From a virus: 44,371 nucleotides of DNA. Where the stretch lies: positions 1 to 44,371 of IMG/VR virus record IMGVR_UViG_3300031951_010912; one strand, 5' to 3'. A program made the translations under genes and the position numbers. The notes under the pieces are model-generated. The model was not told where the DNA came from. It was given only the letters and a program-made list of their open reading frames with translations, and ran no database searches. Every line of letters begins with the position of its first letter. The stretch's first letter is position 1. This document shows positions 2,180 through 6,449 of this stretch, in pieces.

Positions 2180-3076
2180 TTATTTATAAAGTGAAACAAG
2201 ATAATCTGCGGTTAATTCGTGAATTGGTGTACCTGTTACCTTTTCGTGTTGTTCTAATGTACAACTACAGTTAGATTCCCCGTACACATATCCATCATCA
2301 GTTTCATAAACATCGATGTAACAAATTCCAATTTTTCCAGCACCAGTAACTTTAGCAATATTCTCAACAAATTTTATAAGTTCTGGATCAACATTTTTCT
2401 CATGTTTTACATGAGGATTAATACAGACAGTGCATTTCCAACCACCTGGTAATGGAGCATCCCAAGTTACTGCTTCTGCAACAACTTTACCACCATGAAC
2501 AATACATCTAATAATCCTGGAATACTTTAATGTTTTCTGAATTGTCCATTGATCAACGTAGGTTAAACGATTAAAATCGAAATCATCAAGTTCTTTCTTC
2601 TTTAATCTCCAAACATTGCTACCATTACCAGAAGAATAATTTGGTTTTATTACAATGTCATCAGTATCTAGCTGTTGCATAATTTCTTCAATTCTATATC
2701 TGTTGCTAGTTGGGTTTCCATCATTAAGAAATATTTTATCATAATTTAATGCAGTCTTTATACCACCAGCAATAGCAACCTTTTGTGCGTACAATTTATT
2801 ATTTGTTATGTGGATATATTCTGATGTATTTACTAAAATGGCTCCATTATTTTCTATATTAGAATATTTCTGCACATCCTTCGCATTGTATGTTCTAAAA
2901 TGCACAAGATTTTTCTCTGTCTTTGTTTCTTGGAATACATTTAGGAAATTACCAGCAGAGCAAAGTTTTACTGGAATATTGTATTTGGTTTTTATTACAG
3001 ACGCTATCCATGCTGGATAAGTAATAATCCCCAATGTATTTCTTTCTTCCATAAAAGATGATAGTATGTAAATCAT
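2180..3076 (-). CDS. ATP-grasp ligase (RimK/GshB-like)
   Basis: A 298-residue ATP-grasp enzyme. The nucleotide-binding strand is DIVIKPNYSSGNGSNVWRL (about residues 140-158). The metal-binding end is ICYIDVYETDDGYVYGESN (about 251-269), with the usual D...E-x-N arrangement. Such enzymes join a carboxylate to an amine, thiol or hydroxyl using ATP. The substrate cannot be read from the sequence. It overlaps the next upstream gene, a second ATP-grasp-like protein, by 4 bp (ATGA). It is the last gene of a cassette with a cupin and an asparagine-synthetase-like enzyme. It lacks the N-terminal leader-binding features I would need to call it a RiPP ligase. ATP-grasp fold is confident; pathway is unknown. 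Confidence 0.82.
   Translation of the reverse strand: MIYILSSFMEERNTLGIITYPAWIASVIKTKYNIPVKLCSAGNFLNVFQETKTEKNLVHFRTYNAKDVQKYSNIENNGAILVNTSEYIHITNNKLYAQKVAIAGGIKTALNYDKIFLNDGNPTSNRYRIEEIMQQLDTDDIVIKPNYSSGNGSNVWRLKKKELDDFDFNRLTYVDQWTIQKTLKYSRIIRCIVHGGKVVAEAVTWDAPLPGGWKCTVCINPHVKHEKNVDPELIKFVENIAKVTGAGKIGICYIDVYETDDGYVYGESNCSCTLEQHEKVTGTPIHELTADYLVSLYK
2181..2188 (-). promoter_or_regulatory. Exact T4-type late promoter octamer (TATAAATA)
   Basis: The minus strand reads TATAAATA, identical to the T4 late-promoter -10 element. It overlaps the stop codon of the ATP-grasp gene and lies five bases before the ATG of the small FmdB-like gene. That spacing would give an almost leaderless transcript, so chance is possible. 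No transcription data can be seen here. Confidence 0.35.
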
Positions 3077-3918
3077 TTAAGTAAATATTTTGCAATTTTA
3101 ATATGATGATTGCCATTTGTTACTGTTTCAAGAGACGATTCGAAGCAAGCAAAGACCCTTAAAGATCCAGAGATATCTATTACTATCTCAACAATACCAA
3201 TCTCTAAGTTAATCGCTTTTGCTGTAGAATTGACAAGAGTTTCTATTGCAGGATTTTTGAATTTTTCAAAACTAGAATATGATAATGTACTAGAACATAT
3301 TGTTGAATCATCAACATACTTACCATTAATGACTCTAGATCTTGTGTATTTTTCAACAGGTGGACACTCAAAAATCATCCACAAATAATCAAGATTTATG
3401 TCATCAGAGATATATGAATTTTTTTTATGCAATTTATGCCAATAATTAAAGTTTTTTGCTCTTAAATAAAACTCTTGTATATTGTATTCTCTTACATATT
3501 CAACAAGAAAATCATTAAAGTTTTGACCAAATCCTCGTGTTCTATCAAGATTTGTTTTTGCAAAAGTTTGGTCGTGTAAGTAAACAGTAGGTATTTTGTT
3601 CTCTACAAGTTTTTCATTCAATAGTTTATAATCTCTAAGAACTGTGAGTGTATCAAAAGAATTTACTAATTTAAATCCACGAGCTTCTAATTTTTTAGAC
3701 GCATTTAATATATCAAGATTTAAAGATCTTATGTAAATTTTATCAGAATCTGAAGATGGATACACATAATCATCGACCATATTCATAAATAGTTTTTGTG
3801 AAATTATTTTACATTTCTCACCAGATTTAAGTATCTCTACAGCAATACTCTCGACATTCAACACTTCCCCTGAACATCTTTGTTTCCATGATTGATTATC
3901 AACAAGAATATAGATCAT
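3073..3918 (-). CDS. Divergent ATP-grasp-like protein
   Basis: A 281-residue protein that begins MIYILVDNQSW, parallel to MIYILSSFMEE of the neighbouring ATP-grasp protein. It has the same layout: an N-terminal domain, an RDYKLLNEKLVENKIPTVYL segment typical of the ATP-grasp linker, and a late I-x-E-I-V-I-D strand followed by CFESS. The final E-x-N metal site appears as E-S-S, so it may be weakly active, non-catalytic or a partner subunit. It overlaps the cupin gene and the next ATP-grasp gene by 4 bp each, indicating translational coupling. The assignment rests on layout and weak motifs, so moderate certainty. Confidence 0.55.
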   Translation of the reverse strand: MIYILVDNQSWKQRCSGEVLNVESIAVEILKSGEKCKIISQKLFMNMVDDYVYPSSDSDKIYIRSLNLDILNASKKLEARGFKLVNSFDTLTVLRDYKLLNEKLVENKIPTVYLHDQTFAKTNLDRTRGFGQNFNDFLVEYVREYNIQEFYLRAKNFNYWHKLHKKNSYISDDINLDYLWMIFECPPVEKYTRSRVINGKYVDDSTICSSTLSYSSFEKFKNPAIETLVNSTAKAINLEIGIVEIVIDISGSLRVFACFESSLETVTNGNHHIKIAKYLLK

Positions 3919-4604
3919 GCCTTATATGTCCTGTTTAACATAGTATGATTATGGTCAGTTGGACCCCAATCTCCATCTGGATGAAATGCTATCACAACCA
4001 TATTGCTTTGGTTGGTTTTAAATCTATGCAATTCTCTCTCCTCAATACAAAACAGTGTTCCTGGTGTTAAAGGTATTTCTTTCTCATTAATCTTATCTTC
4101 TTTCACACAAGCTGTCCCACTACCAGAAATTACCATACCAATTCTAATACTTGGGTGAATGTGATATGACTGCTCAACATGTGGTGGGAAAAACAACGCA
4201 CTCACTGAAGGATCGCCTTGCCTTGGTGGATAAATTAATAAACTATCGCTACATCCGTCAATATAAACAAGACGACCAGAATCTTCGAGTGGACCACCAA
4301 CCATGTCTTGTCCTCTAAAACCTATTCTAGTAATAATTCCTACTTTACCACTATATCTTAATTCATTACAACCCCAAGACCAACACGAAAAATATTGACC
4401 AGCAGTTGCGCTCATTCCGTTTGGTAAAAGAACATCACCAGAAAAAACATATCCGTAAATATTTGAATATTCATTTGTGTATGTAAATCCCTGATCGTAA
4501 CTTCCATTAATACATTCTGTGGAATCGTACATCGCTGCCGAAGATGGATACATTGTGTTGGTATAATCCAACCACACTTCGTTTTCTTTTGAGTAGATTT
4601 TCAT
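3915..4604 (-). CDS. Cupin-domain protein (possibly bicupin)
   Basis: A 229-residue protein. The C-terminal half is a cupin barrel: YHIHPSIRIGMVISGSG (about residues 155-171) supplies the first motif, and PLTPGTLFCIEERELHRF (about 188-205) the second, with the metal-type His and Glu positions present. The N-terminal half (YVFSGDVLLPNGMSATAGQYFSC) may be a second, degenerate cupin. Members act as isomerases, dioxygenases or sugar/small-molecule binders; which one cannot be told. It lies within the overlapping cassette, two bases after the PP-loop enzyme and overlapping the ATP-grasp-like gene. A role in modifying or binding the product of that cassette is inference. Confidence 0.7.
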   Translation of the reverse strand: MKIYSKENEVWLDYTNTMYPSSAAMYDSTECINGSYDQGFTYTNEYSNIYGYVFSGDVLLPNGMSATAGQYFSCWSWGCNELRYSGKVGIITRIGFRGQDMVGGPLEDSGRLVYIDGCSDSLLIYPPRQGDPSVSALFFPPHVEQSYHIHPSIRIGMVISGSGTACVKEDKINEKEIPLTPGTLFCIEERELHRFKTNQSNMVVIAFHPDGDWGPTDHNHTMLNRTYKA

Positions 4605-4606
4605 GA

Positions 4607-5767
4607 TTAAAAAATAAAGCTGTTGTTTTTGTTTAATAGAAGTTCCGAGTCTGGAACAATGTCATAGTAATTCATATTAGAATCAATCGCCATAGCCATC
4701 GGTTTACGGTTGCATATTTTTGGTAAGCTACCAATCTTAATTTTGTTCAATTTATAATTTTCATTTTTATCAAAGTCAAAAATATATTCCTTACATATAT
4801 ATTTGTAGGTTTTAAGCGTATCATAGATATGCTCATCGCTATTGTTCATAGACCACAATTGAAATTCTTTTGTGCTAAAAAACATGAAATAATTATCTTC
4901 TGGTTTAACATACATTCTAGTTTTTGCTGACACTAGGGACAAAATCCTAAAGTAAACACACTGCCATTTTAATGTGAGATTACACCACCAAAGAAATTTA
5001 CTCATAGTATCAATTTTTACTGGCGCATTTAATGTAATCTGTTCAAGTAAATTAACATAGTGTTCTGTTTGTTGTAGCGTATTAGATGGACTATTGAGAT
5101 ATTTCATCAGTTTAGAGTGCGTAAGTTCATCGTGCACAATTTCTTTTTCGCCATATCGTATAATCAACTGTTGCATCATCCATGATCCAAAAAGCTGGTC
5201 ATTTCCTTCTGCAGTAACACAAATATATTTTGGATCACCAATCGTATTAACAAAACTATGCGATGGTATAATCTTCAAATTGTTTGAGATATAGTTCTCG
5301 TAAAAATCTTTATTCTCACAATAGCTCTCAAATGACATCATAATATTAATTAATTTCTTTTGTGATTTAGTCGCCACTTTTAACATAGAAACAACAACAC
5401 AAGTGCTATCAATTCCGCCACTGTAAAATATACACAGTTCTCGGTTAGTTTTTTCGGCATGCTCAAGTAACTGCTTAGCTCTTAACTCACAACATTCACC
5501 ATACGATATTGTCGTCTTTTCATATGTAGGCAGCTCAAATCCAGGCAGCAACTTTATATTAAATGGAGACTTTATAGTGTTCGTTCTATCATAAAACGTA
5601 ATGTTTTTTCCGAGAAAAAACAAAAAGTTTTTAAAATTATTAATTCCAGGATAATCTCCGTATTTCTGTAGAAATTCTGATTTATTACTACCATATACGC
5701 CAGTCATATCCTCGTAAAACATCTCAACAGTATTAACAAAATAAAACTCAGAGGATACCATATTCAT
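4607..5767 (-). CDS. Asparagine-synthetase-like PP-loop enzyme lacking the amidotransferase domain
   Basis: A 386-residue protein with the N-type ATP pyrophosphatase loop CIFYSGGIDST (about residues 113-123) and the AsnB-type motif AEGNDQLFGS (about 207-216). These place it in the asparagine synthase C-terminal family, which activates a carboxylate as an acyl-adenylate for amide formation. The usual N-terminal glutamine amidotransferase (starting Met-Cys) is absent, as in lasso-peptide and beta-lactam synthetase relatives. Those enzymes use an internal or other amine instead of glutamine ammonia. The start at 5767 has an AAGGAA site 5-7 bases upstream. It overlaps the unknown upstream gene by 20 bp. 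Family is secure; product is unknown. Confidence 0.8.
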   Translation of the reverse strand: MNMVSSEFYFVNTVEMFYEDMTGVYGSNKSEFLQKYGDYPGINNFKNFLFFLGKNITFYDRTNTIKSPFNIKLLPGFELPTYEKTTISYGECCELRAKQLLEHAEKTNRELCIFYSGGIDSTCVVVSMLKVATKSQKKLINIMMSFESYCENKDFYENYISNNLKIIPSHSFVNTIGDPKYICVTAEGNDQLFGSWMMQQLIIRYGEKEIVHDELTHSKLMKYLNSPSNTLQQTEHYVNLLEQITLNAPVKIDTMSKFLWWCNLTLKWQCVYFRILSLVSAKTRMYVKPEDNYFMFFSTKEFQLWSMNNSDEHIYDTLKTYKYICKEYIFDFDKNENYKLNKIKIGSLPKICNRKPMAMAIDSNMNYYDIVPDSELLLNKNNSFIF

Positions 5768-6449
5768 ATGCTTCCTTGATAAAGTTTGAAACTACTTCCT
5801 GTATTGCAAAGAAATCTGTTTGTTTTATAACCAAATCGGTATATTTCATCCGTAGAGTTTCGGTCTCATTTAAATATGATAAACGAAGAGTACGCATAGT
5901 GATAATCTGCTCAGCTGCTTGTTCGAGAGTAATGTTCTTAATCTCAGCATATGATTTTAAAAACAAAGTGTTTCCCGCATTCTTTGTTGCTAAGTAGGTA
6001 GTTGCCTCAATATATTTCTGCGTGTAAATATCATCTTGTAAAAACATATCATTATATTGTTGATTACGAATGAAAGCGATTTCAAGATGAATTCTGTCAA
6101 GCGCAGATCCTATTTCATTAAGTAGCATACAACGATAGTATTCTTCAAAACTATTAAAGTTTTTTGCTTGTGGAACCAACGCTTTATACTCGTTAAACCA
6201 GCCCCAGTAAATACAGTTATCATGAGTAATCTCATTATCCCATTGTCTTGCAATGCGTTTATTACAAGATGAAATCTCATTAACATTAATTATTGTTGAC
6301 ATCGCTCTAGTTGTGCTTGTATTGTTTGTTACGCACACAACTCTCTGTGTTTCTAAATCAATCAATGAATGTAATCGTCCACCATAGTTTGTGACTTTTA
6401 TAACTCTATTGTGCGATTTTAGTTTTTCTTTAAATTCAATTTCATTCAT
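5748..6449 (-). CDS. Unknown protein at head of the ATP-grasp/PP-loop cassette
   Basis: A 233-residue protein without a motif I recognise. The N-terminal half is mixed alpha/beta. The C-terminal half (about residues 110-230) looks strongly helical, with charged and Leu/Ile-rich heptad-like segments. No signal peptide or membrane segment is visible. It overlaps the PP-loop gene by 20 bp and the preceding gene by 4 bp (ATGA), so it is probably co-translated with the cassette. Whether it is a biosynthetic partner, carrier or unrelated gene is open. Confidence 0.7.
   Translation of the reverse strand: MNEIEFKEKLKSHNRVIKVTNYGGRLHSLIDLETQRVVCVTNNTSTTRAMSTIINVNEISSCNKRIARQWDNEITHDNCIYWGWFNEYKALVPQAKNFNSFEEYYRCMLLNEIGSALDRIHLEIAFIRNQQYNDMFLQDDIYTQKYIEATTYLATKNAGNTLFLKSYAEIKNITLEQAAEQIITMRTLRLSYLNETETLRMKYTDLVIKQTDFFAIQEVVSNFIKEAYEYGIL

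Follow-up and report, generated by a model that had tools for sequence, protein, structure and literature searches.

What could a freshwater phage make, or modify, with five closely packed genes that include a PP-loop synthetase, a cupin and an ATP-grasp ligase? The genes lie in the 44,371-base virus record IMG/VR IMGVR_UViG_3300031951_010912, which was analysed over its whole length (the window), and are numbered 1 to 5 in their common direction of reading. A preliminary description made from the letters had treated the five as one unit with two ATP-grasp proteins, which makes or modifies a small molecule, a peptide or a nucleobase. That interpretation is partly supported: the context of peptide enzymes stands, the two intact ATP-grasps and the five-gene unit do not, and the nucleobase gains no support. 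The conserved core consists of genes 1 and 2, often with gene 3, and genes 4 and 5 form a separate pair. Tentatively, and at somewhat less than an even chance, genes 1 and 2 can be read as an ATP-dependent acyl or amide ligase and its dedicated partner, tailoring what we infer to be a peptide or a protein.

A gene-2 profile run on viral contigs returns at least 599 candidate stretches, the best 80 loci of which were kept, and viral relatives of gene 2 number at least 492. With the other loci added, the 80 yield 130 gene-2 open reading frames (ORFs), which fall into 84 clusters when grouped at 85% identity. In 65 of these 84 clusters, the gene-2 homologue is immediately preceded by a gene-1 homologue; the latter is downstream instead in locus L029, and in L012 it follows the second copy of gene 2. 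Among 64 gene-1/gene-2 pairs with long sequences, a 4-nt overlap is the commonest junction. All five genes, sought in other genomes as had been suggested, occur together only in the window and in two further IMG/VR contigs with near-identical cassettes (L002 and L003), and the idea of one conserved five-gene set is rejected in favour of the core of genes 1 and 2. The gene-2 family is rare in cells: it is found in 1 of 379 Patescibacteria and, for the X. albilineans genome, in 1 of 398 of its phylum and 1 of 149 of its family, the sole positive in each count being the genome used as centre. No publication on the pair was found in the literature searched, a weak negative, as most subscription papers lie outside the reach of that search. 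A candidate fusion of genes 1 and 2 in L139 is unsupported. In L012, an Acb1-like (anti-CBASS) protein (5293-5787; Pfam E = 1.8e-24) lies between copies of genes 1 and 2.

Gene 2 (4607..5767, minus strand; 386 amino acids, aa) encodes a synthetase domain of the AsnB/beta-lactam-synthetase type, without a glutaminase domain. Its AlphaFold2 model, built on 23 aligned relatives, has a mean predicted local distance difference test score (pLDDT) of 90.8. When the Foldseek matches are re-examined with VIA-align, the best is beta-lactam synthetase 1mc1 (Z 13.5, root-mean-square deviation (rmsd) 3.6, 205 residues aligned); TsnB9 7ylz reaches Z 13.2 (rmsd 4.4, 256 aligned), human asparagine synthetase 12.2, E. 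coli AsnB 11.6 and carbapenam synthetase 11.3. The top 12 entries have Z 10.9-13.5 over 185-256 residues, and the GMP and NAD synthetases come next, at 8.7 or less. By this ranking, gene 2 is of the AsnB/beta-lactam-synthetase kind, and not of the LarE or GMP-/NAD-synthetase kind. It also bears on the nucleobase of the preliminary description, whether in phage DNA or tRNA. PP-loop chemistry is used in such modification, and a QueC-like PP-loop protein is found near gene 2 in 12 loci, but the fold ranking points elsewhere and the listed recurrent neighbours include no transglycosylase, deazapurine or base-modifying set. Modification of a nucleobase is the least probable of the readings considered here.

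The PP-loop SGGxDS of gene 2, which reads SGGIDST in the window, is intact in 79 of 79 cluster representatives of at least 300 aa; strict patterns find a GExxDQ-like sequence in 68 of the 79 and a KxKxGS-like one in 60, and the window's own candidate for the second ATP motif is AEGNDQ, within AEGNDQLFG. K344 is invariant in the 23 aligned members and, if the end of the alignment is free of gaps (345 opposite 444, 350 opposite 455), it stands opposite K443 of beta-lactam synthetase and K449 of AsnB, which we take to be the catalytic lysines. The residues before SGGIDS (which starts at 116), the first 85 included, match no glutaminase family in Pfam, and the gene-2 profile compared with the full AsnB-like protein in L036 gives an alignment limited to the PP-loop. 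Beta-lactam synthetase, carbapenam synthetase and TsnB9, all among the best fold matches (Z 10.9-13.5), retain an N-terminal glutaminase-derived domain, whereas gene 2 has about 85 other N-terminal residues and 11-14% identity to them.

The closeness of gene 2 to beta-lactam synthetase and TsnB9 is also the first point for the main rival, a serious one, in which a small molecule is the product of the cassette. Like those two enzymes, gene 2 may turn a free acid resembling an amino acid into an amide or a lactam, a real possibility that we nevertheless lean against; to the same degree, gene 5 may add an amino acid, the cupin may oxidise or isomerise the product, and symporters elsewhere may import a building block. 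Gene 1 has no match to any enzyme fold, which argues against such a pathway. Among sequenced phages, gene 2 has one weak match, in Cygsa01 (23.5%, annotated as MnmA), and its homologue in L020 has none. In this Pseudomonas phage (L025, 4616-6858), two gene-2-like ORFs annotated as MnmA flank a 90-aa Pro-containing protein; genes for an S74-like fibre and for a Gly-rich protein precede them. The gene-2 copy of L003 (8001-9032) lacks 129 nt, in frame, between two AACAG repeats; the deletion is either real or an assembly error.

Gene 1 (5748..6449, minus strand; 233 aa) is the partner protein, with an N-terminal alpha/beta part (1-95) and a C-terminal long-helix domain (101-232). Its AlphaFold2 model (mean pLDDT 86.6) consists of this small alpha/beta part followed by long helices. 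The window protein has no family match in Pfam, NCBIfam or PADLOC, and its PHROGs matches are at chance level; across 61 gene-1 members, PHROGs gives unnamed families in 8, 5 and 1, and "baseplate wedge subunit" in 1 of 61 (E = 0.0048). The fold search of the PDB yields nothing significant, the best VIA-align Z of 7.0 being at chance level for helical proteins. Further down, at rank 43, a chain of the Pam3 fibre complex (7ypx_a) aligns over 91 residues with rmsd 3.0 and a Z of 4.6, which unrelated helical proteins can reach. This chain has 162 residues, the same length as the Pam3 chaperone gp25, which is reported to span Met1-Phe162 and whose helical C-terminal domain starts at Pro64 (PMC9608196). 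In BFVD, gene 1 matches unnamed phage proteins (best E = 9.7e-9) and entries named DUF4376 (E = 0.07 and 0.26), a domain that two reports place in the tail-fibre chaperones of phages V22 and A5 (PMC7289586, PMC10579305). Pam3 gp25 and the DUF4376 proteins V22 gp27 and A5 gp9 share with gene 1 a two-part layout and a helical C-terminal domain. A profile of the 61 members has its best match among PDB sequences in the straight-fibre domain of tip attachment protein J (E = 0.1). Comparison of the gene-1 profile with V22 gp27 finds nothing (probability 0.05%), and gene 1 was dropped as a DUF4376 protein; a DUF4376 family search gives no match for gene 1, nor for the controls. Since that comparison is empty and the other matches are weak, there is just a hint that gene 1 derives from a tail-fibre chaperone. 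The gene-1 homologue of L008 has no relative in sequenced phages.

What surrounds the pair suggests what it might act on. Of 73 loci, 25 have a cupin, 10 an SSF symporter and 9 a radical S-adenosylmethionine (SAM) protein no more than three genes away from gene 2; genes 4 and 5 are this close in the window only. Within six genes, the QueC-like protein is found in 12 loci, S74-type tail fibres in 6, and a TctC-type binding protein and an alpha/beta-hydrolase-like protein in 5 each. The radical SAM proteins resemble the PapB, geopeptide, CcpM and SCIFF maturases at scores under the cut-offs, and their SPASM domain is over its cut-off. Sixteen ORFs match the radical-SAM model; two start at a contig end, which leaves 14 to be scored for upstream sequence. 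Ten of the 14 have a Cys-rich protein upstream, with 6 or more Cys in a stretch of 30 residues close to the C-terminus and no more than 2.2 kb from the radical SAM gene; most of these proteins are adhesin-like. L085/L087 and L022/L024 are pairs of near relatives, so that fewer than 10 of these loci are independent. All 10 proteins end in G. By comparison, 50 of 5127 background ORFs of at least 60 aa pass the Cys criterion, and 110 of 1819 picked ORFs of at least 100 aa end in G. L020 3925-4314, L035 4920-5315, L090 4931-5347, L092 2623-3120 and others form a family of adhesin-like proteins whose C-termini consist of (NC)n or (AC)n and a final G, each encoded just before a radical SAM/SPASM gene.

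The radical-SAM loci in which no such protein lies upstream are L093, L094, L044 and L045. L093 (1-16499) carries on one strand a 2-oxoglutarate (2OG) oxygenase, an alpha/beta hydrolase, gene 1, gene 2, a cupin, a second gene 2, a radical SAM protein and an S74 long tail fibre; the single 2OG oxygenase is a Pfam match, and several more proteins look similar by eye. In L044 (Achromobacter phage JWF, 5793-9314), the upstream tail fibre contains, immediately ahead of a Hint (intein-like) domain, an internal NCNCDCNCNCSC run; next come a 240-aa gene and the radical SAM gene, and self-cleavage by the Hint domain could expose a Cys-rich end. In the Xanthomonas-type prophages L034, L037 and L040, gene 1 comes after a poly-Pro ORF with PGG or PDG at its C-terminus; in L034 and L037 this ORF is that of a tail gene, and genes 1 and 2 are followed there by a cupin and a 2OG-Fe(II) oxygenase. 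Two side observations concern the same neighbourhoods. The QueC-like protein, a second PP-loop protein, occurs in L075 (5579-6616) and 11 other loci. Two BLAST groups of small proteins, each some 97 aa long, also recur near gene 2 (L018, L037, L075, L082, L136 and L143; L108, L116, L122, L126 and L131).

The patescibacterial loci add a different set of peptide enzymes. YcaO is present in L030 (E = 7e-49) and L032 (E = 3e-33), and a nitroreductase in L030 and L028; the YcaO hits of the genomes of L028 and L029 fall inside those loci by coordinates, the genome of L031 has one YcaO, and no YcaO is present in those of L027 and L036. Leaving out the genome of L026, a YcaO gene is found in 4 of 6 gene-2-positive Patescibacteria genomes against 13 of 379 in the phylum, an enrichment (Fisher p = 3e-5, shared genome removed) that is built on few and phylogenetically non-independent counts. 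A short, exported-looking Gly- or Cys-rich ORF is recognised by eye in 6 of 7 loci (L027, L028, L029, L030, L032 and L036), and not in L031, a 6-kb contig. Radical SAM/SPASM proteins, YcaO with nitroreductase and 2OG oxygenases thus stand beside relatives of gene 2, as the preliminary description anticipated when it pointed to peptide natural-product pathways.

A model of the pair can be proposed from these data. Gene 2 would bind ATP through its PP-loop, adenylate a carboxylate, and hand it to an amine; as the glutaminase domain is missing, this amine would be free ammonia or an amine of the substrate. Gene 1, as a dedicated partner, would probably present or position the substrate, most likely the carboxylate of a peptide or protein. 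Other enzymes of the locus would modify the product further: here the cupin and the ATP-grasp ligase of gene 5, accompanied by the degenerate gene 4, and elsewhere radical SAM/SPASM proteins, 2OG oxygenases, methyltransferases or YcaO. AsnB-type enzymes adenylate a carboxylate and lead to an amide, and in pathways for ribosomally synthesised and post-translationally modified peptides (RiPPs) they close lasso rings or amidate or nitrilate C-termini (PMC13060819). This chemistry and the neighbouring enzymes together favour peptide or protein tailoring by the pair. The same source describes AsnB-like RiPP enzymes (TsrC, ScdTA, PesC and the lasso cyclases) in which an AsnB-type synthetase activates the carboxylate of a ribosomal peptide (PMC13060819). 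Gene 2 differs from them in having no glutaminase domain, about 370 aa, a gene-1 partner, a viral setting, a score under the Pfam cut-off and a putative peptide substrate.

A narrower form of the peptide or protein reading, which we consider unlikely, has the phage finish the tips of its own tail fibres chemically, with genes 1 and 2 at the core of this system. Gene 1 would derive from a tail-fibre chaperone and hand over the C-terminus of the fibre, in many cases a Gly or Gly-Gly that follows a run rich in Cys, Pro or Gly; gene 2 would adenylate this C-terminus and couple an amine to it; and the tip would be cross-linked or decorated by a radical SAM protein, a 2OG oxygenase, a cupin or an ATP-grasp enzyme. 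As a general rule, adjacency to tail fibres is weakened: in the 73 loci, low-complexity proteins make up 13 of 574 near gene 2 and 10 of 928 far from it, which is not significant (p = 0.056).

Several further points weigh against peptide or protein tailoring. No Cys- or Gly-rich tip protein is present in the four pieces spanning the 79.8-kb contig of L008, and no Cys-rich one is found in about 70 kb of G010 (84.5 kb; 40,001-55,000 left out), the filter passing mainly a Pro-rich membrane protein in each and, in G010, a 574-aa protein with a Gly-rich stretch as well. The Gly- or Cys-rich ORF of Patescibacteria is mostly several genes off, at 3-9 in the four loci that pass the filter. The gene-1 and gene-2 distance matrices correlate (r = 0.79, reached by 0 of 2000 permutations), which counts for the pairing, but as a mark of co-inheritance, not of interaction. 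The window record, possibly a fragment, holds no YcaO, radical SAM or Cys-, Gly- or Pro-rich run; nor is a precursor peptide or a transporter recognised in it, and on both of these the preliminary description was right. The substrate gene of this phage may lie outside the 44-kb record, or may go unrecognised there. The same lack of a recognised precursor favours a small molecule, which the SSF symporters (no more than 3 genes off in 10 of 73 loci) and TctC-type binding proteins (in 5) by the pair in several phages suit at least equally. An alpha/beta hydrolase in L116, L118 and L122 and a tandem methyltransferase in L116 add to this, whereas YcaO, radical SAM/SPASM and the Cys-rich proteins by the pair indicate ribosomal peptides. 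Lastly, gene 2 scores 13.4 bits (E = 0.061) against Pfam Asn_synthase (PF00733), under the curated cut-off of 21, and has E = 0.021 against NCBIfam asn_synth_AEB.

The last point also counts against auxiliary metabolism, in which gene 2 would make asparagine or another host metabolite from ammonia, with the remaining genes as passengers. Its fold is indeed of the AsnB type, and there is a precedent, as viral asnB is listed among auxiliary metabolic genes (PMC8226683). The strict pairing with gene 1, the common neighbours, the missing glutaminase domain and the distance in sequence from asparagine synthases nevertheless make this reading very improbable.

If genes 1 and 2 tailor a peptide or protein, what do the other three contribute? 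Gene 3 (3915..4604, minus strand; 229 aa) is a cupin: its Cupin_2 match in Pfam is at the cut-off (27.2 bits, E = 3e-6), H148, H150 and H193 are invariant in 9 aligned members, and the best PDB match is acireductone dioxygenase 4qgl (E = 1.3e-4). Gene 5 (2180..3076, minus strand; 298 aa) is a RimK-like ATP-grasp ligase with the motifs IVIKP and GESN, matching PF08443 at 22.3 bits (cut-off 21) and TIGR00768 at E = 6.5e-8. Gene 4 (3073..3918, minus strand; 281 aa), a degenerate ATP-grasp-like protein, has no match in any family library searched and is linked to gene 5 by profile comparison alone (probability 95.1, E = 3e-8, with two sequences per side). It has no counterpart of gene 5's IVIKP lysine or E-x-N, so that, judged from its sequence, it is probably non-catalytic, and the view of two intact ATP-grasp proteins gives way. 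A phage contig, L006, carries the gene-4/gene-5 pair apart from genes 1-3 (identity 30-34% for gene 4 and 45-46% for gene 5), followed by an ORF related to SSF symporters. The cupin, gene 5 and the gene-5 homologue of L006 have no relatives in sequenced phages. Microviridin (graspetide) clusters with their two ATP-grasp ligases resemble the cassette in the two adjacent ATP-grasp-related genes; unlike them, it would have a single active ATP-grasp, gene 4 appearing degenerate, and three graspetide core motifs have no match in the six frames of the window.

The layout of the cassette was described correctly from the outset: from gene 1 to gene 5, the successive junctions are a 20-nt overlap, a 2-nt gap and two overlaps of 4 nt each, and fold and family matches bear out an operon that combines an AsnB-type synthetase lacking the glutamine amidotransferase domain, a cupin and an ATP-grasp protein. 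All five are real genes, since each has homologues elsewhere with the frame kept. The upstream gene w6446 (6994-6446) also overlaps gene 1, by 4 nt, and the downstream ORF w1927 (2199-1927) overlaps gene 5, by 20 nt, so translational coupling does not mark the ends of the cassette. These are defined by synteny, as the homologues of w6446 and w1927 adjoin without the cassette in L020 and L024. Scattered homologues had been named as what would speak against the cassette: synteny holds for genes 1-3, and genes 4 and 5 are largely scattered. Third-position GC is 0.18-0.31 in genes 1-5 and brackets the mean of twelve other window genes (0.26, s.d. 0.05), so a very recent import is not indicated. 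PADLOC assigns none of the five proteins to defence or counter-defence, and 20 kb of the window have no relative among sequenced phages at the DNA level. At the record edge (2-373) lies what looks by eye like the start of a peroxiredoxin-like gene.

Genes 1 and 2, a pair that viruses carry in hundreds of copies and that is rare in both of the sampled bacterial phyla, are now tied to peptide-tailoring enzymes. If the substrate of the pair is a small molecule, phages would harbour a compact amide-forming pathway. If instead its substrate is the tail fibre, host recognition would depend on RiPP-like chemistry performed on a virion protein. Chemical maturation of receptor-binding proteins would then be a new layer of host recognition, and the Cys-rich tips of these fibres would be explained.

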